DNA from: Bradyrhizobium betae
Lineage (GTDB): Bacteria > Pseudomonadota > Alphaproteobacteria > Rhizobiales > Xanthobacteraceae
Assembly: GCF_008932115.1 (NCBI RefSeq)
Contig: NZ_CP044543.1
Span: 4,780,501-4,844,500 of the forward strand
Direction: 5' to 3'
DNA: 64,000 nucleotides
In this document: piece by piece, positions 17,936-57,069 of the stretch
Layout of the letters: every line of letters begins with the position of its first letter
Numbering within the stretch: the stretch's first letter is position 1
Program-made: the position numbers and the translations under genes
The notes under the pieces: generated by a model
Seen by the model: only the letters and a program-made list of their open reading frames with translations
Database searches by the model: none
Told to the model about the DNA's origin: nothing

Positions 17936-20785
17936 TTAGTTCAGCGCGTCGTTCAGCGCCGCATTGAGCGCCGCGAGACCCTTCTTGAGCCCGCCCTTGA
18001 GGTGCACCCGAAGCGCCCGCCGGCCGCGCTCGGTGAGCACGTCGAAATCGCCGCGCGCCTGCGCTGCCTTGATCACGCCGAAGCTGGCCTTCTGGCCCGG
18101 CACGGCAAGATCCCTGGCATCGTCGGCGGTGATCTGCAGGAACACGCCGCTGTCAGGCCCGCCCTTGTAGGCCTGGCCGGTGGAGTGCAGGAAGCGCGGG
18201 CCGAACTCGGCGCAGGTCGCGACGTGGCGCTTCTCGCGCACTTCCAGCCGCATGGCCTGGAGCGCGTCGATCGTCGCCTTGTCGCGGGCGATGTAGCCGA
18301 GCAGGGCGACATAGTCGCCATGGTTGGAGCGGGAGAGATGCGCCTTCAGCCAGGAGGTGAGGTCGCCGTTGGCGCCGGCAGCGCGGAGCGCCTTTGCGTT
18401 GGCCTCGTCGGTGTAGAGATCGGCTTCATCCGTGCTGACCACCGGCTGCTCCGCCGGCAGCGCGCCGGACTTCTCGTACGCCGTGGTCAACTCGCGAGTC
18501 TTGATCTTGGCAGCTTCCACGTCCGGCTGGTCGAACGGATTGATGCCGAGGATGCTGCCGGCCACCGCCGTCGCCATCTCGAAGCGGAAGAATTCCTGGC
18601 CGAGATGATCGATCGACTTCATCACGATGCGCACGACGGGATGGCCGGCCGCTTCGATCGCGGCAAGCTGAGAGTCGTGTGCGGCGTCCGCTTCGCCCTC
18701 GGTGCGGATGTCGATGAAGAAGCGGTCGTTGCTGTAGACCGAAGGCTCGCCCAGCGGCTCGCCGGCGATCGGGATCAGGCCCTTGCCTTCCTTGCCGGTC
18801 GATTCCGCGATCAGCTGTTCGGCCCAGGCGCCGAAATCGGCGATCTTCTTCGACGACAGGATCGTCACCTTGTCGCGGCCTTCGAGGCCGGCAAGGCCCA
18901 TGGCAAGGCCGAGCTGCACGCCGGGGTTCTCACTGGGTGGTACGTCCGGTCCGCAGGAACGTGCCATCGCCAGCGCATGCTTGACGAGGGTCTTGACGTC
19001 GATGCCCGCGGTGGCCGCCGGCACCAGGCCGAACGGCGACAGCACCGAATAGCGCCCGCCGATCGACGGTTCGCCATGGAAGATGCGGGCGTAGTTCAGC
19101 GTCTTGGCCGCCTTCTCCAGCGACGAGCCGGGGTCGGTCACCGCGATGAAGCGATGGCCCGCCTTCACCTTGGGGCCGACCGCCTGCGCGACGCGCTCGT
19201 GGAAATAGTCCTTCATCGCGTTCGGCTCGGTGGTGCCGCCCGACTTGCTGGACACGATGAACAATGTGTTGGCGATGTCGATCCTGGCTTCCATCGCCCG
19301 CACCTGCGCAGGGTCGGTGGAGTCGAGCACGTGCAGCTTCGGGAAGCCGGACTTCTTCGCGAACGTTTCGGCCAGCACCTCGGGCCCGAGGCTCGATCCA
19401 CCCATGCCGAGCACGACGGCATCGGAGAACTTCTGGCCCTTCACGCGGTTCGCGTAATCCTCGTAGTCGGCGACATCGGCCTTGGCGGCGCTGTCGAGCC
19501 AGCCAAGCCATTTGTCCTCGTCGGTGCCGGTCCAGACCGATTTGTCGCGCTGCCACAGCCGGCGGATTTTCGCCGATGCGCGCCATTCCTCGGTGCTCTT
19601 GGCCACGGCCTTGCCGAGCCCGTCGCCGAGCGAGAGAAGCTGGCGGTCGATCGCGGGACCAAGCACGGCGGCGCGCTTGTGCGCGACCGCGCCGTAGAGC
19701 TTGTCGGCGGCATCCGCAAACTGCTTCACGCCGTCCTTGACGAGTTCCTCGGTGATGGCGTCGAGCGAAACGCCTGAGCGCTCCAGCTCTTCCAGCACGC
19801 GATAGGCATCCTCGACATTCTCCTCCAGGCTGTCGCGCGGCTTGCCGTGGTCGCGGAACGCATCCAGCGTTGCCGGCGGCACGGTGTTGATGGTGTCGGG
19901 GCCGATCAGCTCCTCGACATAGAGCACGTCGCTATAATCCTTGTTCTTGGTGCCGGTGGAGGCCCACAGCATCCGCTGCGGCCTGGCGCCCTTGGCGGCG
20001 AGCTTGTCCCAGCGCGGACCTGCGAACAGGCGCTTGTAGTCCTGGTAGGCAACCTTGGCGTTGGCGATCGCGACCTTGCCTTTCAGCGCGGCGAGCCGCT
20101 CCTTCTCGGATGGATCGTTGGCGCGCGCGATCTTCTCGTCGAGCTGCTTGTCGACGACGCTGTCGATGCGGCTGACGAAGAAGCTCGCCACGCTCGCGAC
20201 ATGCGAGGGGTCGCCGCCACCGGCGACGTATTTCTCGAGACCGGCGAGATAGGCTTCGGCGACCTCAAGATAGACCGCCTTCGAGAACAACAGCGTGATG
20301 TTGATGCTGATGCCGTCACCGATCAGTGTTTCGATCGCCGGCAGACCTTCCGGCGTCGCCGGCACCTTCACCATCAGGTTCTTGCGATTCACGTCTTTCC
20401 AGAGCCGCCGCGCCTCGGCGACCGTGCCGGCGGTGTCCATCGCGAGGTAAGGCGAGACCTCCAGGCTGACATAGCCGTCGCCGCCCTTGAGACGATCGTA
20501 GACCGGGCGGAGCACGTCGGCGGCATTCTGGATGTCCTCGACCGCGACGGCCTCGAACAGATCGGCCACGGTCCGGTCGCCGCGCTTGAGCGCCTTGCCG
20601 ATCGGGGCGTCGTATTCGTCCGAGCTGCCGATCGCCTTCTCGAAGATCGAGGGGTTGGAGGTGACGCCCTTGACGCCGTCGGTATCGATCAGCCGCTTCA
20701 AATCGCCCTTGGCGATGAAACCACGGGCCAGGAAGTCCAGCCAGACGGCTTGTCCGTGCTTTTCCAGTTCTTTTACGGGATTCAT
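17936..20785 (-). CDS. tal-pgi: Bifunctional transaldolase / glucose-6-phosphate isomerase
   Basis: 949 aa fusion. Residues 1-370 are transaldolase with the Schiff-base Lys in [12 protein letters not shown] and the leading [13 protein letters not shown] motif. From about residue 390 to the end is phosphoglucose isomerase, with [15 protein letters not shown] and the sugar-phosphate motif [17 protein letters not shown]. One polypeptide therefore links the non-oxidative pentose pathway to the glucose-6-phosphate used by Zwf, encoded two genes downstream. Such fusions are known in several Rhizobiales and Actinobacteria. It is the first gene of the six-gene minus-strand operon. ATG 20785 has only a distant GGAG about 18 bases upstream, so the exact start is slightly uncertain. 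Confidence 0.95.
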
Positions 20786-20957: not shown

Positions 20958-20988
20958 AAAAAATCATTGGCCGGGGAGGACCGGCCAA
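20958..20988 (-). terminator. Intrinsic terminator, minus strand
   Basis: Perfect 8-bp stem TTGGCCGG/CCGGCCAA with six-base loop (20967-20988), followed on the minus strand by TGA and six T (complement of 20958-20963). No annotated minus-strand gene ends just upstream of it, so it terminates either an unannotated RNA or a leader transcript. On the plus strand the tail is not U-rich. Confidence 0.65.
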
Positions 20989-21770: not shown

Positions 21771-21897
21771 GATTGCCGCGCGCGGACTGCTCCATGTTGC
21801 GGTGCCGGATGGACTCGTCCCCCCGGTAAGACCCGGATGTTGCGAGCGAGTGACATTTTCTGGAAATGAGCGATGATAGACGCAGATTCGCACAAAT

Positions 21898-21915
21898 AAC
21901 AGGCATGTGCCTGTT
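21898..21915. promoter_or_regulatory. Inverted repeat upstream of prkA, possible operator
   Basis: AACAGGCA-TG-TGCCTGTT, a perfect 8-2-8 inverted repeat in the 306-bp gap between the PH-like gene and prkA, about 160 bases before the prkA ATG. It has no U-tract, so a protein-binding site is more likely than a terminator. The rest of the gap (21771-22076) shows no protein gene. Confidence 0.35.
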
Positions 21916-22013
21916 CGTAACTCAACGAGTGCCTACGTTGTGCGTTGCGTGGAGTTGGCACCCGGGTGTCCAATGATCGTCATGTGCTCACGCTGATTCG
22001 AGAGTGGCGCTAC

Positions 22014-22038
22014 GGAACGGTCCAGTCGTCGCTGCTTT
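22014..22038 (+). promoter_or_regulatory. Possible EcfG-like promoter of prkA
   Basis: GGAAC at 22014-22018, 16 bases, then CTTT at 22035-22038; the EcfG consensus is GGAAC-N16/17-cGTT, so one position of the -10 box is off, the same deviation as in the glgE-side element at 9350. A start near 22045 would give a leader of about 30 nt before prkA. Weak evidence on its own. Confidence 0.3.
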
Positions 22039-22076
22039 AGTTCAGTTGTGTAGCGGAACTCACGCGGAGAGGGATC

Positions 22077-24020
22077 ATGTACAACGATTCTTTGTTCAAC
22101 GCTTTCGCTCGGTCGTTCGAGGCGAGAAGCCAGCACGACATGTCGATGGCGGAATATCTGGAATCGTGTCGAAGCGATCCCATGAAATACGCCAACGCGG
22201 CCGAACGATTACTAGCGGCGATCGGTGAGCCCCAAACGATTGACACGGCCAAGGACCCACGCCTTGGCCGTATTTTTTTGAACCGCACGATCCGCACCTA
22301 TCCGGCCTTCGCCGGCTTCTACGGCATGGAAGAAACCATCGAGCGCATCGTCGGGTTCTTCCGTCACGCGGCGCAAGGCCTCGAAGAGCGCAAGCAGATT
22401 CTCTATCTGCTCGGTCCGGTCGGCGGCGGCAAATCCTCGCTCGCCGAGCGGCTGAAGTCGCTGATGGAAGTGCATCCGATCTACGTGCTCAAGGCCGGTG
22501 ACGAACTCTCGCCCGTGTTCGAGAGCCCGCTCAGCCTGTTCGATCCCGATCAGCTCGGCCCGATGCTGGAAGAGAAATACGGCATTCCGCGCCGGCGCCT
22601 CACCGGCCTGATGAGCCCGTGGTGCTACAAGCGGCTGGAGGCCTTCGGCGGCGACATTTCCCAGTTCAGAGTCGCAAAGATCCAGCCGTCGCGGCTGCGC
22701 CAGATCGGCATCGCCAAGACCGAGCCCGGTGACGAGAACAACCAGGACATCTCCTCGCTGGTCGGCAAGGTCGACATCCGCAAGCTCGAGACCTACGCCC
22801 AGAACGATCCCGACGCCTACAGCTATTCCGGCGGCCTGAACCGCGCCAACCAGGGCGTGCTCGAGTTCGTCGAGATGTTCAAGGCGCCGATCAAGATGCT
22901 GCATCCGCTGCTCACGGCGACGCAGGAAGGCAACTACATCGGCACCGAGAATATCGGTGCGATCCCGTTCACCGGCGTCATCCTCGCGCATTCGAACGAG
23001 GCCGAGTGGGCGAGCTTCAAGTCGAACAAGAACAACGAGGCCTTCATCGACCGCATCTGCGTGATCAAGGTGCCTTACTGCCTGCGGATCACGGAAGAGC
23101 AGAAGATCTACGAGAAGCTGATCCAGGGCTCCGAGCTCGCGGCCGCGCCATGCGCGCCCTCGACGCTGGAGACGCTGGCGCGGTTCTCGGTGATGTCGCG
23201 GCTGCGCAAGCACGAGAACTCCACGATCTATGCCAAGATGCGGGTCTACGACGGCGAGAGCCTGAAGGAATCCGATCCGAAGGCGCGCAGCGTCCAGGAA
23301 TACCGCGATGCGGCCGGCGTCGACGAGGGCATGGACGGCGTCTCCACCCGCTTTGCCTTCAAGATCCTGGCTGCGACCTTCAACCACGATCCGCAGGAAG
23401 TCGCCGCCGACGCCGTGCATCTGATGTACGCGCTGGAGCAGTCGATCAAGCGCGAGCAGCTGCCCGAGGAAGTCGAGAAGCGCTACCTCGAATTCATCAA
23501 GGCGGATCTGGCGCCGCGTTATGCCGAGTTCATCGGTCACGAGATCCAGAAGGCCTATCTCGAATCCTACTCGGATTACGGCCAGAACCTGTTCGATCGC
23601 TACGTCGACTACGCCGATGCCTGGATCGAGGACCAGGACTTCAAGGATCCCGACACCGGCCAGCTGCTCGATCGCGAACTCTTGAACCAGGAACTGACGA
23701 AAATCGAGAAGCCGGCGGGCATCGCCAACCCCAAGGACTTCCGCAACGAGGTGGTCAAATTCTCGTTACGGTCGCGGGCCCAGAACGGCGGCAAGAATCC
23801 GACCTGGACCTCCTACGAGAAGATTCGCGATGTGATCGAAAAGCGGATATTCTCTCAGGTCGAGGACCTGCTTCCGGTGATCTCGTTCGGGTCGAAGAAG
23901 GACGGCGAGACGGAGAAGAAGCACGGCGAGTTCGTGGCACGCATGGTGGAGCGCGGCTACACCGAGCGTCAGGTTCGCCGGCTGGTCGAATGGTACATGC
24001 GCGTGAAGCAAGCCGGTTGA
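22077..24020 (+). CDS. prkA: PrkA family serine protein kinase / AAA ATPase
   Basis: 647 aa, the normal length of PrkA (YeaG in E. coli), a cytoplasmic AAA-type protein with reported Ser kinase activity linked to starvation and stress responses. The N-terminus (MAEYLESCRSDPMKYANAAE) aligns with YeaG from its start, so ATG 22077 is right; GGAGAGGGA lies just upstream. The Walker A motif GPVGGGKSS is near residue 120 and the C-terminal PrkA domain ends in VEWYMRVKQAG. It is the first gene of prkA-yeaH-spoVR (15 bp gap, then overlap). Odd feature: codons 1-68 use many codons rare in this genome (AGA, CGA, TTA-CTA, CCA, ATT-TTT-TTG) and contain a complete intrinsic terminator, after which codon use returns to the GC-rich norm. 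Confidence 0.96.
   Translation: MYNDSLFNAFARSFEARSQHDMSMAEYLESCRSDPMKYANAAERLLAAIGEPQTIDTAKDPRLGRIFLNRTIRTYPAFAGFYGMEETIERIVGFFRHAAQGLEERKQILYLLGPVGGGKSSLAERLKSLMEVHPIYVLKAGDELSPVFESPLSLFDPDQLGPMLEEKYGIPRRRLTGLMSPWCYKRLEAFGGDISQFRVAKIQPSRLRQIGIAKTEPGDENNQDISSLVGKVDIRKLETYAQNDPDAYSYSGGLNRANQGVLEFVEMFKAPIKMLHPLLTATQEGNYIGTENIGAIPFTGVILAHSNEAEWASFKSNKNNEAFIDRICVIKVPYCLRITEEQKIYEKLIQGSELAAAPCAPSTLETLARFSVMSRLRKHENSTIYAKMRVYDGESLKESDPKARSVQEYRDAAGVDEGMDGVSTRFAFKILAATFNHDPQEVAADAVHLMYALEQSIKREQLPEEVEKRYLEFIKADLAPRYAEFIGHEIQKAYLESYSDYGQNLFDRYVDYADAWIEDQDFKDPDTGQLLDRELLNQELTKIEKPAGIANPKDFRNEVVKFSLRSRAQNGGKNPTWTSYEKIRDVIEKRIFSQVEDLLPVISFGSKKDGETEKKHGEFVARMVERGYTERQVRRLVEWYMRVKQAG
22245..22279 (+). terminator. 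Intrinsic terminator inside the prkA coding sequence (candidate attenuator)
   Basis: Sense-strand hairpin with a perfect 10-bp stem ACGGCCAAGG/CCTTGGCCGT (22245-22254 and 22262-22271), 7-base loop, then A and seven T (22273-22279). It covers prkA codons 57-68. Translating ribosomes would melt the stem; without translation the RNA should end here, giving a transcript of roughly 235 nt if it starts near 22045. The U-tract is encoded by ATT TTT TTG, unusual in a gene that otherwise favours ATC, TTC and CTG/CTC. Confidence 0.7.
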
Positions 24021-24035
24021 GGCGGATGGGAATCA

Positions 24036-25319
24036 GTGGCCATTCACATCATTGACAGGCGCCTGAATCCAGGCGGCAAGAGTCTTGAGAACCGTCAGCG
24101 GTTCTTGCGTCGGGCCAAATCCCTGGTGCAGGGCGCCGTCAAGAAGACCTCGCAGGAACGCGATATCAAGGACGTCCTGGAGGGTGGTGAGGTCACGATC
24201 CCGCTCGACGGCATGCACGAGCCGCGGTTCCGCCGTGAGGGCGGAACGCGCGACATGGTGCTGCCGGGCAACAAGAAGTTCGTCGAGGGCGACTATCTCC
24301 AGCGCTCCGGCCAGGGCAGCGCCAAGGATTCCGGTCCCGGTGAAGGCGACAGCGAGGACGCCTTCCGCTTCGTGCTCAGCCGCGACGAGTTCGTCGATCT
24401 CTTCCTCGACGATCTCGAACTGCCGGATCTGGCCAAACGCAAGATTGCGCAGACCGAGAGCGAGGGTATCCAGCGCGCCGGCTACACCACGTCGGGCTCG
24501 CCCTCCAACATCTCGGTGAGCCGGACGGTGCGCCGCGCGATGGCGCGTCGTATCGCGCTCAAACGTCCCAGCAAGGACGAGATCGAGGAGCTGGAAGCGG
24601 CAATCGCCGCTTGCACGGACGAGGACGAGCGCTCGCTGATGCTCGCCCAGCTCGAAAAGCTGAAGGCGAAGTCGAAGCGGATTCCGTTCATCGATCCGAT
24701 CGACATCCGCTATCGGCGCTTCGAGACGGTGCCCAAGCCGGTCGCGCAGGCCGTGATGTTCTGCCTGATGGATGTCTCGGGCTCGATGTCCGAGCACATG
24801 AAGGATCTCGCCAAGCGATTCTACATGCTGCTCTACGTGTTCCTGAAACGGCGCTACAAGCACGTCGAGATCGTCTTCATCCGCCACACCGACCGCGCCG
24901 AGGAGGTGGACGAGCAGACCTTCTTCTACGGCCCGGCCTCGGGCGGCACGCTGGTCTCCAGCGCGCTGCAGGCGATGCATGAGATCGTGCGCGAGCGCTT
25001 CAGCCCGGCGGACTGGAACATCTACGCCGCGCAGGCCTCCGACGGCGACAACTCCTATTCCGACGGCGAGCTCACGGGCATGCTGCTGACCGACAAGATC
25101 CTGCCGGTCTGCCAGTTCTTTGCCTATCTCGAGGTCGGGGAATCAGGCGGCAGCGCCTTCGATCTCTCCGACTCCTCGCTCTGGACTCTCTACGAGCGCC
25201 TGCGCAACGGCGGCGCACCGCTTTCGATGCGCAAGGTCAGCGAGCGCAGCGAGATCTTCCCGGTGTTCCACGATCTGTTCCAGCGCCGCGAAACGGCCCA
25301 GGAGAAAGCTGCTCCATGA
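24036..25319 (+). CDS. YeaH/YhbH family protein with von Willebrand A-like domain
   Basis: 427 aa from GTG 24036. A charged N-terminal half contains the family pattern (IDRRLNPGGKSLENRQRFLRR by position 5-25), and the C-terminal half is a vWA-like fold with the metal-site motif CLMDVSGSMSEHMKD around residue 246. Biochemical role unknown; in Bacillus (YhbH) and E. coli (YeaH) the gene always sits with prkA and often spoVR and is induced by stress or stationary phase. It lies 15 bp after prkA, and its stop overlaps the spoVR start by 4 bp (ATGA), so the three proteins are probably made together. Confidence 0.93.
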   Translation: MAIHIIDRRLNPGGKSLENRQRFLRRAKSLVQGAVKKTSQERDIKDVLEGGEVTIPLDGMHEPRFRREGGTRDMVLPGNKKFVEGDYLQRSGQGSAKDSGPGEGDSEDAFRFVLSRDEFVDLFLDDLELPDLAKRKIAQTESEGIQRAGYTTSGSPSNISVSRTVRRAMARRIALKRPSKDEIEELEAAIAACTDEDERSLMLAQLEKLKAKSKRIPFIDPIDIRYRRFETVPKPVAQAVMFCLMDVSGSMSEHMKDLAKRFYMLLYVFLKRRYKHVEIVFIRHTDRAEEVDEQTFFYGPASGGTLVSSALQAMHEIVRERFSPADWNIYAAQASDGDNSYSDGELTGMLLTDKILPVCQFFAYLEVGESGGSAFDLSDSSLWTLYERLRNGGAPLSMRKVSERSEIFPVFHDLFQRRETAQEKAAP

Positions 25320-26851
25320 CGGAAAGATTGTTCGAAGGCGCGGATTGGGACTTTCACACCTTGCAGCGCATTACCGATGCCTGCGAGGAGGTGGCGAAGA
25401 ACGATCTCGGTCTCGACGTCTATCCGAACCAGATCGAGGTCATCACCGCCGAGCAGATGCTGGATGCCTACTCTTCGGTCGGCATGCCGCTGTTCTACAA
25501 GCACTGGTCCTTCGGCAAGCAGTTCGCCTATCACGAGGCCTCCTACCGCAAGGGCCTGATGGGCCTCGCCTATGAGATCGTGATCAACTCTTCGCCCTGC
25601 ATCTCCTATCTGATGGAGGAGAACACGGCGACGATGCAGACGCTGGTGATCGCGCACGCCGCCTTCGGCCACAACCATTTCTTCAAGAACAACTATCTGT
25701 TCAAGCAATGGACCGACGCCGACGGCATCCTGGACTATCTCGATTTCGCCAAGACCTACGTCATGCAATGCGAGGAGCGCTACGGCCGCACCGAGGTCGA
25801 GCGCACGCTGGACGCCGCGCATGCGCTGATGTCGCACGGCATCGACCGCTATCCCGGCAAGAAGAAGCTCGACCTGCGCGCCGAGGAGAAGCGGGCAGGG
25901 CGCCGCCGCCAGCACGAGGAGGAGGTCTTCAACGATCTCTGGCGCACGGTCCCCAAGGGTGCCGCCAAGAGCAAGTCCACGCTCAGCCTCGAGCGCCGCC
26001 GCAAGCTGCTCGGCCTGCCGCAGGAAAACCTGCTCTATTTCCTGGAGAAGAGCGCGCCGCGGTTGGCTCCCTGGCAGCGCGAGCTGCTGCGCATCGTCCG
26101 CCACATCGCGCAATATTTCTATCCGCAGAGCCAGACCAAGGTGATGAACGAGGGCACCGCGACCTACGTCCATTACCGCATCATGACCAAGCTGCACCAG
26201 ACGGGCCGCATCACCGACGGCAATTTCCTCGAATTCCTGCAATCGCACACCAACGTGGTGTTTCAGCCCGAATTCGACGATCGGCGCTTCTCCGGCTTCA
26301 ATCCCTATGCGATCGGCTTCGCCATGATGCAGGACATCGAGCGCATCGTCACCAGGCCGGAGGACGAGGACCGGGAATGGTTCCCCGATATCGCCGGCAA
26401 GAACGACGTAATGGGCGTGCTGCGCGACGTCTGGGCCAACTACCGCGACGAAAGCTTCATCGCCCAGTTCCTGAGTCCGAAGCTGATGCGGCAGCTCCGC
26501 ATGTTCCATCTGCACGATGATCCCGAGGAGCGTGCCGGCATCCGGGTCGATGCGATTCACGACGAGCGCGGCTTCCGCCGCGTGCGGCGCGAGCTCGCGC
26601 GGCAGCACGATGTCGGCTACATCGACGCCAACATCGAGGTGGTCGACGTCGATCTCTCCGGCGACCGCCGGCTGATCCTGCACCACCACGTCATCAAGGG
26701 CGCGCAGCTCAACGAGACCGACGCCAAGCGGGTGCTCCAGCACCTCGCCGATCTCTGGACCTACGACGTCTCGCTGATCGAGGTCGACGCCAACGACAAG
26801 GTCCTGCGCGAATACGTCGTGAGCCCGCGCCCGATCACCGCGGCGGCCTGA
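25316..26851 (+). CDS. spoVR: SpoVR family protein
   Basis: 511 aa, full length for the SpoVR/YcgB family. Conserved blocks include YHEASYRKGLMGLAYEIVIN, SYLMEENTATMQTLVIAHA with FGHNHFFKNN, and GKNDVMGVLRDVWANYRDES. In Bacillus SpoVR affects spore cortex formation; this organism is not expected to sporulate, and in proteobacteria the family belongs to the PrkA/YeaH stress triad with unknown biochemistry. Starts in an ATGA overlap with yeaH. A short palindromic repeat element begins 45 bp after the stop. Confidence 0.94.
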   Translation: MTERLFEGADWDFHTLQRITDACEEVAKNDLGLDVYPNQIEVITAEQMLDAYSSVGMPLFYKHWSFGKQFAYHEASYRKGLMGLAYEIVINSSPCISYLMEENTATMQTLVIAHAAFGHNHFFKNNYLFKQWTDADGILDYLDFAKTYVMQCEERYGRTEVERTLDAAHALMSHGIDRYPGKKKLDLRAEEKRAGRRRQHEEEVFNDLWRTVPKGAAKSKSTLSLERRRKLLGLPQENLLYFLEKSAPRLAPWQRELLRIVRHIAQYFYPQSQTKVMNEGTATYVHYRIMTKLHQTGRITDGNFLEFLQSHTNVVFQPEFDDRRFSGFNPYAIGFAMMQDIERIVTRPEDEDREWFPDIAGKNDVMGVLRDVWANYRDESFIAQFLSPKLMRQLRMFHLHDDPEERAGIRVDAIHDERGFRRVRRELARQHDVGYIDANIEVVDVDLSGDRRLILHHHVIKGAQLNETDAKRVLQHLADLWTYDVSLIEVDANDKVLREYVVSPRPITAAA

Positions 26852-29975: not shown

Positions 29976-31031
29976 TCAGCGCAGGCTGGCGTTGAACTTG
30001 TCCAGCGCCGCCGAGCCCGGGCACAGCCTATCCGCTTCCAGCGTGTTGAGCGGCGTCTCGACCGTGTTGAGATGGGTGTGCAGATCGTCCGCATCGGGAT
30101 CGACGTAGAGCAGGCCGGTGACGATCTGGCCCTTCGCGGCGTGCCTTGCGAGGAAGGTCTGGGCCCCCAGCCGGTCGTGCGGATCGTAGTCCGCGTCGAT
30201 CTTGCGCAGCGCGATCTTGCTGCCGTCATGCTGCTCGACCACCTGCACCGTGCCCGGCGCATAGTCGACCGCGATCGGATCGCGGCCGACCAGCACGTCG
30301 AGCCGGTTCACGGCATCGTTGTGCTCGCGGACGTAATCGAAACTCTTGGTCGAGCCGGCGTGGTTGTTGAAGGCGATGCAGGGGCTGATGACGTCGATGA
30401 AGGACGCGCCCTTGTGGCCGATCGCGGCCGCGATCAACGGCACCAGCTGGGTCTTGTCGCCGGAGAACGAGCGCGCGACGAAGGTGGCGCCCAGCTGCAG
30501 CGCGATCGCGACGAGGTCGATGGCGTTGTCGGTGTTGGTGACGCCCTTCTTGGACTTGGAGCCGCGGTCGGCGGTCGCCGAAAACTGGCCCTTGGTCAGT
30601 CCGTAGACGCCGTTGTTCTCGACGATATAGGTCATGTTGACGCCGCGCCGAATCGAATGCGCGAACTGGCCGAAGCCGATCGAGGCGGAATCGCCGTCGC
30701 CGGAAACGCCGAGATAGATCAAGTCGCGGTTGGCGAGGTTGGCGCCGGTCAACACGCTGGGCATGCGGCCGTGTACGGTGTTGAAGCCGTGCGAGTTGCC
30801 GAGGAAGTAGTCCGGCGTCTTCGACGAGCAGCCGATGCCGGAAATCTTCGCCACCCGGTGCGGCTCGATCGAGAGCTCGTAGCATGCCTCGATGATCGAG
30901 GCCGTGATCGAATCGTGGCCGCAGCCGGCGCACAGCGTCGAGATCTTGCCCTCGTAGTCGCGGTGGGTGTAGCCGAGCTCGTTCTTCTTGAGGCCCGGAT
31001 GATGGAATTTCGGCTTTGCAATGTAGGTCAT
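29976..31031 (-). CDS. korB: 2-oxoacid:ferredoxin oxidoreductase, beta subunit (KorB-like)
   Basis: 351 aa thiamine-diphosphate subunit. CAGCGH (Cys34, Cys37) and a third Cys at 68 in GIGCSSK are the usual [4Fe-4S] ligands of this class; the TPP motif is GVSGDGDSASIGFGQF with ENNGVYGLTKGQ. With KorA it oxidatively decarboxylates a 2-oxoacid, most likely 2-oxoglutarate, to the acyl-CoA while reducing ferredoxin. It overlaps the korA stop by 4 bp (ATGA). Pyruvate or branched-chain substrates cannot be excluded. Confidence 0.93.
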   Translation of the reverse strand: MTYIAKPKFHHPGLKKNELGYTHRDYEGKISTLCAGCGHDSITASIIEACYELSIEPHRVAKISGIGCSSKTPDYFLGNSHGFNTVHGRMPSVLTGANLANRDLIYLGVSGDGDSASIGFGQFAHSIRRGVNMTYIVENNGVYGLTKGQFSATADRGSKSKKGVTNTDNAIDLVAIALQLGATFVARSFSGDKTQLVPLIAAAIGHKGASFIDVISPCIAFNNHAGSTKSFDYVREHNDAVNRLDVLVGRDPIAVDYAPGTVQVVEQHDGSKIALRKIDADYDPHDRLGAQTFLARHAAKGQIVTGLLYVDPDADDLHTHLNTVETPLNTLEADRLCPGSAALDKFNASLR

Positions 31032-32875
31032 GACACGGCCTTGCGGAGCGGGGTCACCTTGAGGTGATCCTGGTGGTCGCCAATGGCTTTTGCGATGTAG
31101 CGGGCGGTGATCGGGGTGCCGTCGTAATGCACGATCGGCACGAGGCGGACGGGATCGATGCCGTTCTCGTTGACGATCAGCTGCCGCAACTGGCTGTCGC
31201 GATTCTGCTCGACCACATAGACGAAGTCGTGCTCGGCGAGGAAGCTCGCCACGCTCGAATGGAACGGGAAGGCGCGGATGCGCAGGCGGTCGAGCTGATG
31301 TCCGCGCGCTTCCAGCAGTCCGATCGCCTCGTCCATCGCCGGCGAGGTCGAGCCGAAATAGATCACGCCATATCTGGTCGGCCGTTCCGCGTTGGCTTGC
31401 AGCGGCCGTGGCACGAGATCCTGCGCGGTCTCGAACTTGCGGACGAGACGTTGCATGTTGTCGGCATAGACCGAGCCTTCCTCGGAGTAGCGCGCATAGC
31501 GATCACGCGAGGTGCCGCGGGTGAAATAGGAGCCCTTGGTCGGATGCGTGCCGGGATAGGTGCGGTAGGGGATGCCGTCGCCGTCGACGTCGAGATAGCG
31601 GCCGAAGTCGCGGCCTTGCTCCAGCATCTCCGCGGTCATCACCTTGCCGCGGTCATACTGCTTGGAATCGTCCCATTTCAGCGGACGGCAGAGCCGGTGG
31701 TTCATGCCGATGTCGAGGTCGAGCATCAGGAAGATCGTGGTCTGCAGCCGTTCGGCGAGATCGAAGGCGGCCGCCGCGAACTCGAAGGCTTCAGCCGGAT
31801 CTTCCGGAAACAGCAGCACATGCTTGGTGTCGCCGTGCGAGGCATAGGCGCAGGCGATGATGTCGCATTGCTGGGTGCGGGTCGGCATGCCCGTGGAGGG
31901 GCCGGCGCGCTGGATGTTCATGATCACCGCGGGGATCTCGGCGAAGTACGACAGGCCGATGAACTCGGTCATCAGCGAGATGCCCGGGCCGGAGGTCGCG
32001 GTGAAGGCGCGGGCGCCGTTCCAGGAGGCGCCAATGACGATACCGATGGAAGCCAGCTCGTCCTCGCCCTGCACGATCGCGTATTTCGCCTTGCCGGTCT
32101 CGGGATCGTGCCGGTACTTCTTGCAATGGGCGGTGAAGGCCTCCGCCACTGACGAGGACGGCGTGATCGGATACCAGGCGCACACCGTGGCGCCGCCATA
32201 GACGGCGCCGAGCGCAGCCGCGCTGTTGCCCTCGATGAAGATGCGGTCGCCGACCTTGTCGGACTTCTTGATGCGCAAGCCCAGCGGGCATTTCAAATTC
32301 TGCAGCGCCCAGTCGCGGCCGAGATGCAGCGCGTGGACGTTGGAGGAGAGCAGCTTCTCCTTGCCCTTGTACTGCTCGCCGATCAGCTGCTCGATCAGCT
32401 TCGGGTCCATGTCGAGCAGCGCACTGAGCGCGCCTAAATAGATGATGTTCTTGAACAGCTGGCGCTGGCGCGGATCGGTGTAGGTCGAGTTGGTGATCGC
32501 GGTGAGGGGCACGCCGATCACGGTGATGTCGTCGCGGAATTTGGTCGACGGCATCGGCTTGGTGGAATCGTAGAACAGATAGCCGCCGGGCTCGATGCCG
32601 GCGACGTCCTTGTCCCAGGTCTGCGGATTCATCGCCACCATCATGTCGACGCCGCCGCGGGCGCCGAGATGGCCGTCCTCCGTCACCCGGACCTCGTACC
32701 AGGTCGGCAGGCCCTGGATGTTGGAGGGGAAGATGTTGCGGGGGGAGACCGGCACACCATGGCGCAGGATCGCGCGCGCGAACATTTCGTTGGCGCTGGC
32801 CGAGCCCGAGCCGTTGACGTTGGCGAAACGGACGACGAAGTCGTTTACGCTGCTGAGCGGCTTTTTGTCGGACAT
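31028..32875 (-). CDS. korA: 2-oxoacid:ferredoxin oxidoreductase, alpha subunit (KorA-like, gamma-alpha fusion)
   Basis: 615 aa. The N-terminal about 190 residues are the gamma domain (GSGSASANEMFARAILRHG), followed by the pyrimidine-binding alpha domain (WYPITPSSSVAEAFTAHCKK, TSGPGISLMTEFIGLS) and a C-terminal domain II. This two-subunit KorAB layout is typical of aerobic actinobacteria and some alphaproteobacteria and supports an oxygen-tolerant 2-oxoglutarate oxidoreductase. ATG 32875 lies inside the 3' end of the upstream FAD gene (31-bp overlap), and longer readings run through that gene in the wrong frame. An incomplete SD (AGG) precedes it. Confidence 0.93.
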   Translation of the reverse strand: MSDKKPLSSVNDFVVRFANVNGSGSASANEMFARAILRHGVPVSPRNIFPSNIQGLPTWYEVRVTEDGHLGARGGVDMMVAMNPQTWDKDVAGIEPGGYLFYDSTKPMPSTKFRDDITVIGVPLTAITNSTYTDPRQRQLFKNIIYLGALSALLDMDPKLIEQLIGEQYKGKEKLLSSNVHALHLGRDWALQNLKCPLGLRIKKSDKVGDRIFIEGNSAAALGAVYGGATVCAWYPITPSSSVAEAFTAHCKKYRHDPETGKAKYAIVQGEDELASIGIVIGASWNGARAFTATSGPGISLMTEFIGLSYFAEIPAVIMNIQRAGPSTGMPTRTQQCDIIACAYASHGDTKHVLLFPEDPAEAFEFAAAAFDLAERLQTTIFLMLDLDIGMNHRLCRPLKWDDSKQYDRGKVMTAEMLEQGRDFGRYLDVDGDGIPYRTYPGTHPTKGSYFTRGTSRDRYARYSEEGSVYADNMQRLVRKFETAQDLVPRPLQANAERPTRYGVIYFGSTSPAMDEAIGLLEARGHQLDRLRIRAFPFHSSVASFLAEHDFVYVVEQNRDSQLRQLIVNENGIDPVRLVPIVHYDGTPITARYIAKAIGDHQDHLKVTPLRKAVS

Positions 32876-34644
32876 GTCGAACCTGCGTGAGTCATCTCGA
32901 TGAAATATTTCTGCATGTCCCAGGCACCGGTGGGACAACGCTCGGCGCACAGCCCGCAATGCAGGCAGACGTCCTCGTCCTTGACCATGACGCGCCCGGT
33001 CTTGAGGTCGCTGGACACGTAGAGGTCCTGGTCCGGATGCGGCGACGGCGCCTTCAGGCGATGGCGCAGATCGTCTTCTTCGCCGTTGCCGGTGAAGGTG
33101 ATGCAGTCCATCGGGCAGATGTCGGCGCAGGCATCGCACTCGATGCAGAGCGAAGTCGAGAACACGGTCTGGACGTCGCAGTTCAGGCAGCGCTCGGCCT
33201 CGCCGAGCGCGAGCTTGACGTCGTAGCCGAGCTCGACCTCGGTGCGGATGTCCTTCAGCGCGATCACCTTGTCGCGATGCGGCACCTTGAAGCGCTTGTC
33301 GTTGGAGATGTCGTTGTCATAGCTCCATTCGTGGATGCCCATCTTCTGCGAGGAGATTTGCACCTCCGGCAGCGGCCGCTCGGTGATGTCCTCGCCCGAG
33401 AGCAGTTTGTGGATCGACAGCGCGGCGTCATGGCCCTGCGCCACCGCCCAGATGATGTTCTTCGGCCCGAACGCGGCGTCGCCGCCGAAGAACACCTTTG
33501 GATTGGTCGAGACGAAGGTCTTCGGGTCGACCTTGGGCATGTGCCATTTGTCGAACTCGATGCCGCAATCCTGCTCGATCCAGGGGAAGGCATTCTCCTG
33601 GCCGACCGCGACCAGCACGTCGTCGCATGCGATGGTCTGGTCGGGCTCGCCCGAGGGAACGAGATTGCGGCGGCCCTTGGCATCGTATTCGGCCTTCACC
33701 TTCTGGAAGGTGATGCCGGTGAGCTTGCCATTGTCGTGCACGAAGGCGACGGGAACGAGGAAGTTGAGGATCGGAATGTCCTCGTGGAGTGCGTCTTCTT
33801 TCTCCCACGGCGAGGCCTTCATCTCTTCGAAGCCGGAGCGCACGATCACCTTGACGTCTTCGCCGCCGAGCCTGCGCGCGGTGCGGCAGCAATCCATCGC
33901 GGTGTTGCCGCCGCCGAGCACGATGACGCGCTTGCCGATCTTGTCGGTGTGGCCGAACGACACCGACGACAGCCAGTCGATGCCGATATGGATATTGGTA
34001 GCCGCTTCCTTGCGGCCCGGAATGTCGAGCTCGCGTCCACGCGGCGCGCCGGAGCCGACGAAGATCGCGTCATACTTCTCCGCGAGCAGCGCCTTCATGC
34101 TCTCGATGCGGTGACCTCCCTTGAAGTCGACGCCGAGACCCAGGATGTAGCCGGTCTCCTCGTCGATGACGGAGTTAGGCAGACGGAATTTCGGGATCTG
34201 CGTCCGCATCATGCCGCCAGCTTCGGGGTCGCCGTCGAACACCGTGCAGTGATAGCCGAGCGGCGCGAGATCGCGCGCCACCGTCAGCGAGGCCGGGCCA
34301 CCTCCGACGAAGGCGACGCGCTTGCCGTTTTTCGCGGAAGGGCGCGGCAGGCGCTGCGTGATGTCGTCCTTGAAATCAGCGGCGACGCGCTTGAGGCGAC
34401 AGATCGCGACCGGCGTCTCCTCGACGCGTCCGCGGCGGCACGCCGGCTCGCACGGACGATCGCAGGTGCGTCCCAGAATTCCGGGAAACACATTCGACTT
34501 CCAGTTGATCATGTAGGCGTCGCTGTAGCGGCCTTGCGCGATCAGTCGGATGTATTCGGGAACGGGAGTGTGCGCTGGACAGGCCCATTGGCAATCGACC
34601 ACTTTGTGAAAGTAGTCGGGGGCCGCGATATCGGTCGGTTTCAT
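32845..34644 (-). CDS. FAD-dependent oxidoreductase with C-terminal 2x[4Fe-4S] domain (GltD-like)
   Basis: 599 aa. The N-terminal part is the GltD-type Fe-S region (CQWACPAHTPVPEY and CDRPCEPACRRG), then two nucleotide-binding folds (VAFVGGGPASL near residue 110 and VIVLGGGNTAMDCCRTARR for NAD(P)H), and a bacterial ferredoxin-like C-terminus with CIECDACADICPMDC and CLHCGLCAERCPTG. It probably shuttles electrons between NAD(P)H and ferredoxin or KorAB. It is the first gene of the operon and overlaps korA by 31 bp. The 275-bp upstream gap carries an inverted repeat GCTCAAG/CTTGAGC at 34664-34693, possibly a leader structure. Confidence 0.9.
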   Translation of the reverse strand: MKPTDIAAPDYFHKVVDCQWACPAHTPVPEYIRLIAQGRYSDAYMINWKSNVFPGILGRTCDRPCEPACRRGRVEETPVAICRLKRVAADFKDDITQRLPRPSAKNGKRVAFVGGGPASLTVARDLAPLGYHCTVFDGDPEAGGMMRTQIPKFRLPNSVIDEETGYILGLGVDFKGGHRIESMKALLAEKYDAIFVGSGAPRGRELDIPGRKEAATNIHIGIDWLSSVSFGHTDKIGKRVIVLGGGNTAMDCCRTARRLGGEDVKVIVRSGFEEMKASPWEKEDALHEDIPILNFLVPVAFVHDNGKLTGITFQKVKAEYDAKGRRNLVPSGEPDQTIACDDVLVAVGQENAFPWIEQDCGIEFDKWHMPKVDPKTFVSTNPKVFFGGDAAFGPKNIIWAVAQGHDAALSIHKLLSGEDITERPLPEVQISSQKMGIHEWSYDNDISNDKRFKVPHRDKVIALKDIRTEVELGYDVKLALGEAERCLNCDVQTVFSTSLCIECDACADICPMDCITFTGNGEEDDLRHRLKAPSPHPDQDLYVSSDLKTGRVMVKDEDVCLHCGLCAERCPTGAWDMQKYFIEMTHAGSTCPTKSRSAA

Positions 34645-35623: not shown

Positions 35624-36607
35624 TTAACGCGCGGCCTTCGATGCGAGATCCGCGATCGACTTCATGACCGCGTCCCGCACGCCGGCATCATAGAGCGAAT
35701 GTCCGGCTTCTTCCACGATCCTGACCTCGGAACCCGGCCAAACTTTCGCGAGCGCCTGCGATGTCGCGGGCGGGCACAACAGATCGTAGCGGCCCTGCAC
35801 GATGATGCCGGGAATGCCGTTGAGCTTGCCGGCGTTCCGCAACAGCTGGTTCTCGCTCATGAAGCTGTCGTGGACGAAATAATGCGCCTCCATGAACGGC
35901 GTCGCCGGCAGCGTGCGCCAGACGTTCAACGAGGCGAGATCGATCCGCGTCTTGGCCGGCTTGTGCTCGGACAAGGCGCGTTCGGTATCGTGCCAGGCGC
36001 GCGACGCCGGGCCGTGCACGGACGGATCGGCATCGAGGATGCGACGATAGTAGGCTTCCACCGGCTGCTCGCGCTCTTCCGGCGGCAGCACGCTGAGGAA
36101 ATCCTCGTAGAGCGCGGGATAGAATTGCGACAGGCGCGAGGTGAAGGCCGTCTCGACTTCCGCCCGTGTGCCCAGGAATGTCGCGCGCAGCGCGATGCCG
36201 GAGACGCGCTCGGGATGCGCCTCTGCATAAGCCAGCGCCAGCGTCGCGCCCCAGGAGCCGCCGACCACCATCCAGCGCGAGATGCCGAATTTCTCGCGGA
36301 TTGTCTCCATGTCCGCGATCAGATGCGCCGTGGTGTTGTGCGCACGCGATCCCTTGGGACGGCTGCGGCCGCAGCCGCGCTGGTCGAACAGCACCGCATG
36401 CATGCGCTCGGGATCGAACAGCCGGCGGTGGTCGGGCTGGCAGCCGCTGCCCGGGCCGCCATGCAGATAAATGGCCGGGATGCCATCGGCGCGCCCAACG
36501 CTCTCGACATAGAGCTCATGGCCGTCGCCGACATCGAGCATCTCGGAGGTCAGTGGCGCAAAGGGATCGGCGCGTTTGGCGGATGCGGCCGCGTCGGCGT
36601 CAGGCAT
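35624..36607 (-). CDS. pip: Proline iminopeptidase (alpha/beta hydrolase)
   Basis: 327 aa serine peptidase that removes N-terminal proline. Motifs: oxyanion HGGPGSG, nucleophile elbow GGSWGATLALAY, acidic residue in QGRYDLLCPP and His in EEAGHSLYD. ATG 36607 overlaps the pqqE stop by 8 bp (another ATG sits at 36610), so it is translationally coupled to the pqq genes. A peptidase in a PQQ operon could degrade the remains of the PqqA peptide; known pqq proteases are of other families (PqqF/PqqG zinc proteases), so this link is inference. Confidence 0.9.
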   Translation of the reverse strand: MPDADAAASAKRADPFAPLTSEMLDVGDGHELYVESVGRADGIPAIYLHGGPGSGCQPDHRRLFDPERMHAVLFDQRGCGRSRPKGSRAHNTTAHLIADMETIREKFGISRWMVVGGSWGATLALAYAEAHPERVSGIALRATFLGTRAEVETAFTSRLSQFYPALYEDFLSVLPPEEREQPVEAYYRRILDADPSVHGPASRAWHDTERALSEHKPAKTRIDLASLNVWRTLPATPFMEAHYFVHDSFMSENQLLRNAGKLNGIPGIIVQGRYDLLCPPATSQALAKVWPGSEVRIVEEAGHSLYDAGVRDAVMKSIADLASKAAR

Positions 36608-37793
36608 CATTGCCGGATTCCGGAGTGCCGCCGGCGAAATTGCGATAGAGGAAGCGGTTGGTCTCGCCCTCGGCCTCGCGCTCGGCCTGCTTGAAGATGG
36701 TCTCGTGCAGCGGCGACAGCGCGCAGGCGGGATCGGTGTTGGCGGCATCGCCTGTCAGCGCAAAGGCCTGGCAGCGGCAGCCGCCGAAATCGATCTCGCG
36801 GAATTCGCAGCTCTTGCACGGCTCCTTCATCCAGCCGGTGCCACGATAGCGGTTGAAGGCCTCCGAGTTCTGCCAGATCCACGCGATCGAATGGTTCGAG
36901 CGCACCGACTCGAAGTCGAGTCCGGTGATGCTCTCGGCGGCATGGCACGGCAGCACCTTGCCGGCGGGCGAGATGTTGAAGAACTGCCGGCCCCAGCCGC
37001 CCATGCACTTCTTCGGCCGCAGCGCGTAGTAATCCGGCACGACGTAGTCGATGGCGAGCGTGCCCTTGAGCCGCTCCCGCGCCTCCTCGACGATATCAGT
37101 GCATGCGTCGAGCTGCGCCACCGTCGGCATCAGCGCGGCGCGGTTCTTCAGCGCCCAGCCGTAATATTGCACGTTGGCGACCTCGAGCCGGTCGGCGTCG
37201 AGATCGACAGACATCTGGATGATGTCGGGAAGCTGGTGCAAATTCTGCCGGTGCATCACCGCGTTCACGGTGAGCGGCAGATCGAGCTCGCGCGTCCATT
37301 TTGCCACCTCTAACTTCTTGTGGTGGCCGCCTTTGTAGCCGGCGACGCGATCGGCGAGACCTTCCTCGACGCCTTGGAAAGAGATCTGCACATGGCAGAG
37401 CCCGGCATCGGCAAGCTCGCTCAGCCGCTCGCGCGTCAGCAGCACGGCCGAGGTGATCAGGTTGGTGTAGAGCCCGACGTCGGTTGCATGCTTGACCAGC
37501 TCGACGAGGTCTTTCCGCGCCGTCGGCTCGCCGCCGGAGAAATGCACCTGCAGCACGCCGATCTCGGCGAGCTCGCTCAGCACCTTCTTCCACTCGTCCG
37601 TGGTCAGCTCCTTGCCCGAGCGATCGAGCTCGACCGGGTTGGAGCAATAGGGGCACTGCAGCGGGCAGCGGTGGGTGATCTCGAGCAGCACGGCGAGCGG
37701 AATGCCGAACGTCTCCGCCGTCGAGCGGCCCTTCTCCAGCACCGCGAGGCTGTCGCTGGCATCGGGCGGGATAATTGGGAGCACGTCGCTCAT
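36600..37793 (-). CDS. pqqE: PQQ biosynthesis radical SAM enzyme PqqE
   Basis: 397 aa. Forms the Glu-Tyr carbon-carbon crosslink on the PqqA peptide, the first step of pyrroloquinoline quinone synthesis. Radical-SAM cluster ligands Cys43, Cys47 and Cys50 lie in CPLQCPYC; the C-terminal SPASM part carries the auxiliary-cluster cysteines (CMGGWG, CHAAE, CKSCEFREIDFGGCRC). ATG 37793 overlaps pqqD as ATGA; the longer reading through pqqD is a shadow. Confidence 0.97.
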   Translation of the reverse strand: MSDVLPIIPPDASDSLAVLEKGRSTAETFGIPLAVLLEITHRCPLQCPYCSNPVELDRSGKELTTDEWKKVLSELAEIGVLQVHFSGGEPTARKDLVELVKHATDVGLYTNLITSAVLLTRERLSELADAGLCHVQISFQGVEEGLADRVAGYKGGHHKKLEVAKWTRELDLPLTVNAVMHRQNLHQLPDIIQMSVDLDADRLEVANVQYYGWALKNRAALMPTVAQLDACTDIVEEARERLKGTLAIDYVVPDYYALRPKKCMGGWGRQFFNISPAGKVLPCHAAESITGLDFESVRSNHSIAWIWQNSEAFNRYRGTGWMKEPCKSCEFREIDFGGCRCQAFALTGDAANTDPACALSPLHETIFKQAEREAEGETNRFLYRNFAGGTPESGNDA

Positions 37794-38101
37794 GGCGTCT
37801 TCTCCCGGGCCTCGGTCAAAAAGCCCTTGTCGGCGAGATCCTGCAGCATGACGATGACGTCGGCGAGGATCGCCTCGCGCGGCGCGGCGTATTTCGCCGC
37901 CAGCTGGTCGGAGACGTCGCCGACGCTGCGCTCGCCGTTGCAGAGCTGCAAGACCTCGACCGCGATCTCGTCCGGCGCCAGCACGCGTTCCGGCGCCAGG
38001 ATCACCCAGACCTTGCGCGTCTCGTCGTATTTCAGCTTGGCGTGCCGCGGCAGCACGGGGCGGCTTGCCTCGCTGACGCTGATATGACGCGGCCCGGCCA
38101 T
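37790..38101 (-). CDS. pqqD: PQQ biosynthesis peptide chaperone PqqD
   Basis: 103 aa RiPP-recognition-element protein that binds PqqA and presents it to PqqE. It shows the usual LPRHAKLKYDETRKVWVIL region and a C-terminal LQDLADKGFL helix. The start lies 12 bp after the pqqC stop and its own stop overlaps pqqE. Confidence 0.95.
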   Translation of the reverse strand: MAGPRHISVSEASRPVLPRHAKLKYDETRKVWVILAPERVLAPDEIAVEVLQLCNGERSVGDVSDQLAAKYAAPREAILADVIVMLQDLADKGFLTEAREKTP

Positions 38102-38113
38102 TTCCGTTCCTCT

Positions 38114-38893
38114 TCAACCCGCTTTGGGCACGAACGCGCCCGGCGGAATGTTGCCCTCGACATAGGCGTAATAGAGCGCGTCGAGCTGCACCCACAGCAC
38201 GTTGGTCTTGAAGATCAGCGCGTTGCAGACCGATGCGCGTTGCTCCGGCGTCGTCGCATGCGTCCTGACATAGTCGAGCGCGAAATTGGCGTCGCGCGGC
38301 GCCTGGGTCAGGCGGCGCTTGAAGTAGCTCATGGTGTCCGGGTTGACGAAGTCATAGTGCTGCAGCATGCCGGCAATGCGCTCCTCGTGGATGCTGGGCG
38401 CGAACAATTCGGTCAGCGACGAGGCGATCGCCTCCAGCGGTGACTTCTCGCGGCAATAATGGACATAGGCTTCGACCGCGAAGCGTGTCGCCGGCAGAAT
38501 GCCCTCGGTGGATTCCACGTAAGCCGTGTCGAGGCCGAGGCCGTCGGTCAGCTTCAGCCAGCGCTCGATGCCGCCCTCGCTGCCGACATCGCCGTCATGG
38601 TCCTCGATGCGGTGCCGCCATTCCAGGCGCGTGGCGCGGTCGCGGAAGCGCGAGATCACCACCGCGTCCTTGATCGGGATCGTGCTCTGGTAATAGTAGC
38701 GGTTCAGCGCCCAGGCCTGCACCTGGCCCTTGTTCAGCTTGCCGCCGTGCAGCAGCTTATGAAACGGGTGCAGGCTGTGATAGCGGGTCGCGCCGATGTG
38801 GCGCAGCGCCGCCTCCAGCTCCTCGGCCGAATTGAGCCTGATGTCCTTGCCGATCGAGAGTGCAGTCATTCCAGTCAGTGACGCGGCATTCAC
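38114..38893 (-). CDS. pqqC: Pyrroloquinoline-quinone synthase PqqC
   Basis: 259 aa cofactorless oxidase that carries out the final ring closure and eight-electron oxidation to PQQ. All-helical TENA-like sequence with YHSLHPFHKLLHGGKL, QAWALNRYYYQSTIPIKDA and HDGDVGSEGGIERWL. It starts at GTG 38893, overlapping the pqqB stop by 4 bp; an internal ATG at 38869 (residue 9) is the alternative. Confidence 0.96.
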   Translation of the reverse strand: MNAASLTGMTALSIGKDIRLNSAEELEAALRHIGATRYHSLHPFHKLLHGGKLNKGQVQAWALNRYYYQSTIPIKDAVVISRFRDRATRLEWRHRIEDHDGDVGSEGGIERWLKLTDGLGLDTAYVESTEGILPATRFAVEAYVHYCREKSPLEAIASSLTELFAPSIHEERIAGMLQHYDFVNPDTMSYFKRRLTQAPRDANFALDYVRTHATTPEQRASVCNALIFKTNVLWVQLDALYYAYVEGNIPPGAFVPKAG

Positions 38894-56996: not shown

Positions 56997-57069
56997 GCCC
57001 ACTCCTGTCCCTTTGCCGGGGTTTCGGGGGCGCGGGAGACGGTGCCGCGTGCGAAAACGGAGAGTGGTC

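Follow-up and report, generated by a model that had tools for sequence, protein, structure and literature searches.

We found that prkA of Bradyrhizobium betae carries a complete intrinsic-terminator signal within its own coding sequence. A perfect 10-bp stem with a 7-nt loop, followed by A and seven T, occupies positions 22245–22279, in frame at codons 57–68 and on the sense strand of the gene. The hairpin is conserved at its wobble positions beyond what the protein needs, and it is very probably an intrinsic terminator held in prkA by selection. We infer that it stops transcription and that it acts as a translation-sensitive intragenic attenuator, a reading to which we give a probability of roughly 0.55. 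Positions refer to the window, that is, the whole 64,000-nucleotide stretch of DNA that was analysed, and the features discussed are collected in Table 1.

Table 1. Features of the prkA region, in window coordinates.
Feature	Positions	Strand	Remarks
EcfG-like promoter variant, GGAAC-N20-AGTT	22014–22042	+	form in relatives: GGAAC-N16–17-CGTT
Possible pairing of GGGATC before the start codon (22071–22076) with GATCCC (22176–22181, codons 34–35)	22071–22181	+	fold, partial covariation
prkA (PrkA serine kinase/AAA)	22077–24020	+	647 codons; Pfam PF08298, PF06798; hosts the element
Rare-codon segment, prkA codons 1–68, ending at the terminator	22077–22280	+	adaptiveness change point, codon deviation; not unique to copies with the terminator
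Possible long leader hairpin, coding nt 8–15 (22084–22091) with nt 84–91 (22160–22167), inner helices between	22084–22167	+	codon-permutation tests
Terminator stem, 5′ arm, ACGGCCAAGG	22245–22254	+	prkA codons 57–60; near-invariant in 147 copies
Terminator loop, ACCCACG	22255–22261	+	codons 60–62; free variation at the third positions of codons 60 and 61
Terminator stem, 3′ arm, CCTTGGCCGT	22262–22271	+	prkA codons 62–65
U-tract, A (22272) and seven T (22273–22279)	22272–22279	+	codons 66–68, ATT TTT TTG
yeaH-type gene (DUF444), second in putative operon	24036–25319	+	Pfam PF04285
spoVR-type gene, third in putative operon	25316–26851	+	Pfam PF04293

The site has the form of an intrinsic terminator: a stable, G+C-rich hairpin with a short loop and an adjoining U-rich tract. 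The hairpin folds at -18.6 kcal/mol (z -3.2), which was equalled by 3 of 200 shuffles. Under a strict filter (10 bp, at least five G-C pairs and at least six T in eight) it was the only site in the 64-kb window; dinucleotide shuffles gave a mean of 0.06 sites, with one or two sites in 17 of 300. A 12-kb scan returned 13 terminator-like sites, of which the prkA site ranked first; shuffles give 7.8. Additionally, a looser filter was run over 864 kb of the same genome, made up of the window and 40 further stretches (about 12% of the genome, 657 picked ORFs). It returned 41 sites, four of them antisense, four sense-intragenic and 33 intergenic or at gene edges. Sequence outside the picked genes makes up only 22% of the 864 kb, yet these 33 sites lie there or at gene edges, as expected of terminators. 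Only in prkA does a sense-intragenic site have an unbroken T run. Of the remaining three, one starts 3 nt and another 45 nt inside its ORF, and these two ORFs may have been given wrong starts. On the minus strand of the window, an 8-bp stem with a U-rich tail (20967–20988) lies upstream of the minus-strand gene at 17936–20785.

Two other identities for the element were rejected. An antisense terminator does not fit, because the reverse strand has no U-tract 3′ of the prkA stem. A known RNA family does not fit either, since Rfam gave no match in the window and a search of 21850–22450 gave two hits far below the gathering score (E 1 and 1.4).

The element is written in codons that this genome seldom uses. 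Measured over 27 window ORFs (28 picked, prkA excluded), the frequencies are 0.037 for CCA, 0.047 for CTT, 0.079 for CGT, 0.080 for ATT, 0.107 for TTT and 0.063 for TTG, and codons 57–68 are the run of 12 codons that departs most from prkA's own codon usage. A sequence-only reading of this DNA had claimed both a complete terminator signal here and unusual synonymous choices (CTT, CGT and ATT-TTT-TTG) behind it. The sequence, the fold and the uniqueness of the site in the window confirm the first claim, and the codon frequencies bear out the second.

We then have to consider conservation of the protein combined with codon bias, or plain chance, as the source of the pattern. PrkA is indeed a conserved protein, with full-length matches in the genus 91–100% identical, but codon bias works against these particular codons. 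Matches to prkA were obtained in 137 of 146 Bradyrhizobium genomes, with no match in the other nine, and 130 of 144 places were read; across the genus, the gene is 84.4–100% identical to the window copy. Adding 18 copies (16 from related genera and two from the same genus) to the genus loci gave a set of 147. Codons 57–68 are identical to those of the window in 65 of the 130 loci, the window's own counted, and one locus is identical there though its gene is only 85.4% identical overall. Across the 147 copies, all ten stem pairs are present in 136, nine in ten and eight in one. The stem codons (ACG GCC AAG and CGC CTT GGC CGT) hardly vary in genus loci, CTT being found in 128 and CGT in 124 of 129 genus copies. 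Loop codon 61 is variable and may be CCA, CCT, CCC, GCC, ACC or others. In the U-tract, TTT is kept in 124 and TTG in 123 of the 129 genus copies, and codon 66 is ATT in 89 and ATC in 40. The nine bases of codons 66–68 contain seven T in 102 of the 147 copies, six in 35 and five in 10.

Two tests set these counts against the rest of the gene. In the column test, each codon column was swapped for one drawn at random from those columns in codons 69–640 that encode the same amino acid. Over 3000 trials, the mean number of pairs reached at most 8.2, compared with 9.9 observed, and the mean number of T in codons 66–68 reached at most 5.7, compared with 6.6 observed. In the tree count, based on 146 distinct sequences, the seven stem wobble positions changed 10 times where about 112 changes were expected, a result matched in 0 of 100,000 draws; the outermost stem pair accounts for six of the 10. 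Loop codons 60 and 61 changed 12 and 26 times. For the stem, the column test and the tree count lead us to reject chance and protein conservation, and we regard this explanation as practically negligible. For the three U-tract codons, 18 changes were counted and 31 expected, a shortfall that does not reach significance (P 0.23), and codon 66 switched between ATT and ATC 13 times. Thus, the T-richness of the U-tract is unusual, but its rate of change is not. The conservation among relatives that the sequence-only reading had looked for was therefore upheld for the near-invariant stem and for the T-rich composition of the tract, and not for a constant U run. That reading had also raised compensatory synonymous changes in the stem, and none were found. 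In this register every wobble base of the stem faces a first codon position on the opposite arm, which makes synonymous compensation nearly impossible, so that such a test cannot decide.

The variation that does occur in the stem is informative about its nature. AAG was replaced by AGG in 8 of the 147 copies, with the pair retained as G-U. Wobble changes that would likewise be tolerated as G-U pairs (GCC to GCT, CGC to CGT and GGC to GGT) took 0, 0 and 1 steps on the tree. Their near absence means that either the full strength of the stem matters or the letters themselves do, and more than base pairing may be conserved in the stem. One explanation along these lines is that a repressor or a roadblock protein binds the inverted repeat as DNA inside the gene. 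A perfect 10+7+10 palindrome, with near-absolute conservation of sequence even where G-U pairs would be allowed, is what such a site might look like. We nevertheless think this very unlikely, because the position and the form are those of a terminator, the T-rich tract of rare codons stands on one side only, directly 3′ of the repeat, and the recurrent change of AAG to AGG breaks the symmetry of the DNA and keeps the RNA pair. A hairpin in coding sequence beside rare codons could also act on the mRNA only, by slowing ribosomes or by influencing decay or the folding of the N-terminal domain, without terminating transcription. This is quite unlikely in our judgement, as it leaves unexplained both the use of TTT TTG instead of the usual TTC CTG and the strength of the conservation.

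The T run itself might be read as a place where slippage or frameshifting is programmed and the hairpin stimulates it, given that it comprises seven T and that the +1 frame reaches a stop one codon on. One locus (L148, in genome G272) even has eight T instead of seven and a broken prkA frame, which may be a homopolymer sequencing error or a real disruption. We rejected slippage as extremely improbable because the run is interrupted after its first U by ATC in 40 of 129 genus copies. Additionally, the stimulatory stem in ribosomal frameshifting lies 3′ of the slippery run, whereas the prkA stem lies 5′ of it.

The element extends beyond Bradyrhizobium. Among the family genomes sampled, each of the four other genera with a prkA match carries it, in weakened form in some copies (L143, L145, L146 and L147). 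The gene is patchy in the family: 167 of 198 sampled genomes, some of them incomplete, gave no prkA match. Some genomes hold two or three copies of prkA (L125 and L128 in G053, L127 and L129 in G025, L096 and L130 in G012, L131 and L145 in G283; the third copies of G053 and G025 were left out), and all copies read keep the terminator except L145, in which the stem and the U-tract are weakened. In 20 order-level loci of other families the element is absent, with three to eight pairs and no TTT TTG. Among the best 80 named loci, a set that overlaps with the unnamed one, 68 keep nine or ten pairs together with TTT TTG. Carriers in this set include Tardiphaga, Bosea psychrotolerans, a Roseiarcaceae and Rhizobiales bacterium 65-9, and the element is absent there from Rhizobium, Chelatococcus, L248 and the Xanthobacteraceae bin L238. 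The copies outside the family could stem from transfer of prkA or from an older origin. Within the genus, the two clearest cases of weakening come from genomes of 5.0 and 3.5 Mb, at loci L089 (eight pairs, TTC CTC) and L111 (nine pairs, TTC CTG). The weakened sequences of L089, L111, L145 and L147 suggest that the element is dispensable in those genomes.

Rare codons are not confined to the hairpin. A change-point search over the first 333 codons of the lineage showed that codon adaptiveness rises after codon 68, where the U-tract ends, and the deviation in codon usage is 1.29 bits in codons 1–68 versus 0.37 after them. The very rare codons CGA, TTA and CTA stand at positions 44–46. Several rare codons upstream of the stem are conserved in the genus, namely TCT at codon 5 (125 of 129), TGT at codon 31 (128 of 129) and CGA at codon 32 (124 of 129). 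The idea that this rare-codon step occurs together with the terminator was rejected, since loci without a terminator in Rhizobium, Chelatococcus and L238 also show a step. In these loci the change point of GC3 is codon 66 (four Rhizobium loci), 34 (a second Rhizobium group), 69 (Chelatococcus) or 61 (L238); in three carriers outside the family it is codon 90 (Bosea), 124 (L243) or 67 (L237). Most of the 20 order-level loci have a small GC3 difference, L159 being an exception (0.58 versus 0.84). Elsewhere in the window, the first 70 or so codons are also poorly adapted in the ORFs at 31030–33139 (minus strand), 36602–38195 (minus strand) and 57012–58755 (plus strand), perhaps because a start was picked too far upstream or a segment was inserted.

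The start of the gene may hold a second structure. Codons 1–33 (63 sequences) fold better than codon-permuted versions, with 0 of 150 permutations as good in the alignment score and 0 of 150 for single sequences, and codons 1–36 (42 sequences) gave 1 of 150 and 0 of 150. For the control segments, codons 69–104 and 201–236, 97 and 101 of 150 permutations were as good. Eight segments or sets were tried, and only codons 1–33 and 1–36 stand out. Adding 12 nt of leader weakened the alignment score of the lineage, with 8 of 150 permutations as good (1 of 150 for single sequences), and in the same form the 11 loci without the terminator gave 41 of 150 (single sequences 68 of 150). The fold of the whole leader, codons 1–56, is weak (z -1.8, 7 of 150), and codons 29–56 gave no structure signal in the codon-permutation test. 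The helix in codons 1–36 has no covariation beyond that of shuffles. In the pairing of GGGATC with GATCCC, one pair is G-C in 80, C-G in 20 and unpaired in 48 of 148. Judged from these sequence comparisons, a second structure in codons 1–36 is suggestive. The minimum-energy folds computed contain no pairing that would make a competing antiterminator hairpin of the trp type.

Upstream of the gene we found a promoter-like motif that we take to be of the EcfG type, a stress-sigma type with the consensus GGAAC-N16–17-CGTT. This pattern lies within 250 nt upstream of prkA in 83 of 148 loci, at one distance in 61, and in 0 of 148 single shuffles. The window's own motif is imperfect, with three extra bases and AGTT for CGTT; L004 and L006 have N17-AGTT. 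A start predicted just after the motif would give an RNA of about 235 nt ending at the terminator. A sigma-54 promoter, as in R. etli, was rejected, as 1 of 148 loci matched the strict pattern. Ahead of prkA, two blocks (21941–21948 and 21993–22000) recur across genera, GC[AG]TTGC at 138 and CTGATTCG at 106 of 148 loci, with no clear sigma-54 site.

The terminator and the nearby EcfG-like promoter would together define a short RNA, and this brings in the main rival to our reading. It holds that the prkA leader chiefly yields a regulatory small RNA of about 235 nt, which acts on other RNAs, and that attenuation is secondary. The folding of codons 1–33 and 1–36 and the conserved rare codons upstream of the stem would agree with this, and there is precedent in E. 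coli, where ORF-internal small RNAs with conserved wobble positions, such as FtsO, exist according to one report (PMC7815308). We consider a small RNA as chief product unlikely. In the tree count, the third positions of codons 2–56 changed by a mean of 13.1 steps, compared with 15.1 for codons 69–640; this is nearly the usual rate, and so no broadly conserved seed was found in codons 2–56. The 235-nt stretch folds little better than shuffles (z -1.5), it matched no Rfam family, and its leader helix is the one without covariation. Finally, prkA goes unmentioned in the main text of the Bradyrhizobium RNA papers checked, one of which describes a B. japonicum dRNA-seq resource (PMC4842269).

We favour attenuation coupled to translation, which fits the position of the element, the rare codons upstream of it and the published terminators in coding regions. 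The prkA terminator lies in translated sequence, in frame within the gene, as an attenuator of this kind would. In E. coli, one study describes intrinsic terminators in coding sequence that are masked by ribosomes and unmasked by stalling (PMC5021804). A terminator placed 30 bp into an ORF keeps most of its efficiency there, the first ribosome not yet having caught up; this ribosome is thought to reach the polymerase after about 100–200 nt, and later terminators are partly or fully repressed (PMC4824070). The prkA stem begins 169 nt into the gene and would thus stand where coupling is being decided.

Based on these points, we propose the following model. The polymerase would leave the promoter and, some 200 nt beyond the start codon, meet the hairpin. 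With a late first ribosome, owing to weak initiation, slow rare codons upstream or scarce charged tRNA, the hairpin would fold and transcription would stop, yielding a short RNA that lacks a stop codon. With a ribosome close behind, or a polymerase slowed as in starvation, the ribosome would cover the 5′ arm, no hairpin would form and prkA, yeaH and spoVR would be transcribed. The N-terminus of PrkA would thereby double as a leader peptide. The structure in codons 1–36 may set the speed of ribosome loading, and the rare codons 44–46, judging from their position, would hold the ribosome at a point where the stem is still free. In R. etli, prkA is the first gene of a three-gene operon and the most (p)ppGpp-induced gene on an array, according to one report (PMC3188799); a switch that opens in starvation would fit this. 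The Rhizobium loci read do not have the element, and it would therefore not be part of the (p)ppGpp response there. More tentatively, the first 68 codons could be a dual-use module in several genera, serving at once as coding sequence, slow-translation leader and terminator. Such a module would sense the distance between ribosome and polymerase where coupling normally sets in, and would gate a stress operon once transcription has begun, needing neither an antiterminator nor a separate leader peptide; we regard this as a possibility with the odds somewhat against it.

A literature search, which covered few subscription journals, found no published description of a prkA attenuator, in agreement with the sequence-only reading, which knew of none. 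That reading identified the signal correctly and probably assigned it to the right class. Intragenic terminators are usually taken as accidents for ribosomes to mask. The prkA terminator is held almost unchanged, in rare codons, in many species and several genera, and this implies a benefit to the cell. If our model is true, a single natural site would allow a direct test of how transcription and translation are coupled in alphaproteobacteria, and PrkA/YeaH/SpoVR, a stress operon that is conserved but poorly understood in its function, would gain a control step that follows its promoter. Additionally, conserved wobble positions in rare codons, taken together with the register of a hairpin, offer a cheap route to search for other such elements.

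Several known systems resemble the one proposed here. For a rhizobium, a study of S. meliloti DUF1127 describes attenuation that depends on translation, as we propose for prkA; unlike prkA, that system uses an upstream ORF, has no intrinsic terminator, probably works through Rho and is relieved by stalled initiation (PMC12218461). FtsO and aceK int, the latter with an intrinsic terminator score, are like prkA in having a second RNA function within a coding sequence and conserved wobble positions (PMC7815308). The prkA element differs from both in that its terminator is early and downstream of the gene's own start, and in that a small RNA is only predicted. Another such system is pyrBI of E. 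coli, where an intrinsic terminator in the translated sequence of pyrL is suppressed by a close ribosome (PMC5021804), as would happen in prkA. There, pyrL precedes the genes as a leader peptide in its own right, whereas the prkA terminator lies inside the enzyme's own N-terminal coding region. The narY and rsxC candidates from the same EF-P study are intragenic intrinsic terminators that depend on coupling, as we propose for the prkA element. They were predicted by ARNold in E. coli and tested in vitro, where rsxC needed NusA (PMC5021804), whereas the prkA terminator is predicted from sequence. The prkA terminator differs from these two candidates in its deep synonymous conservation over several genera, which shows selection.
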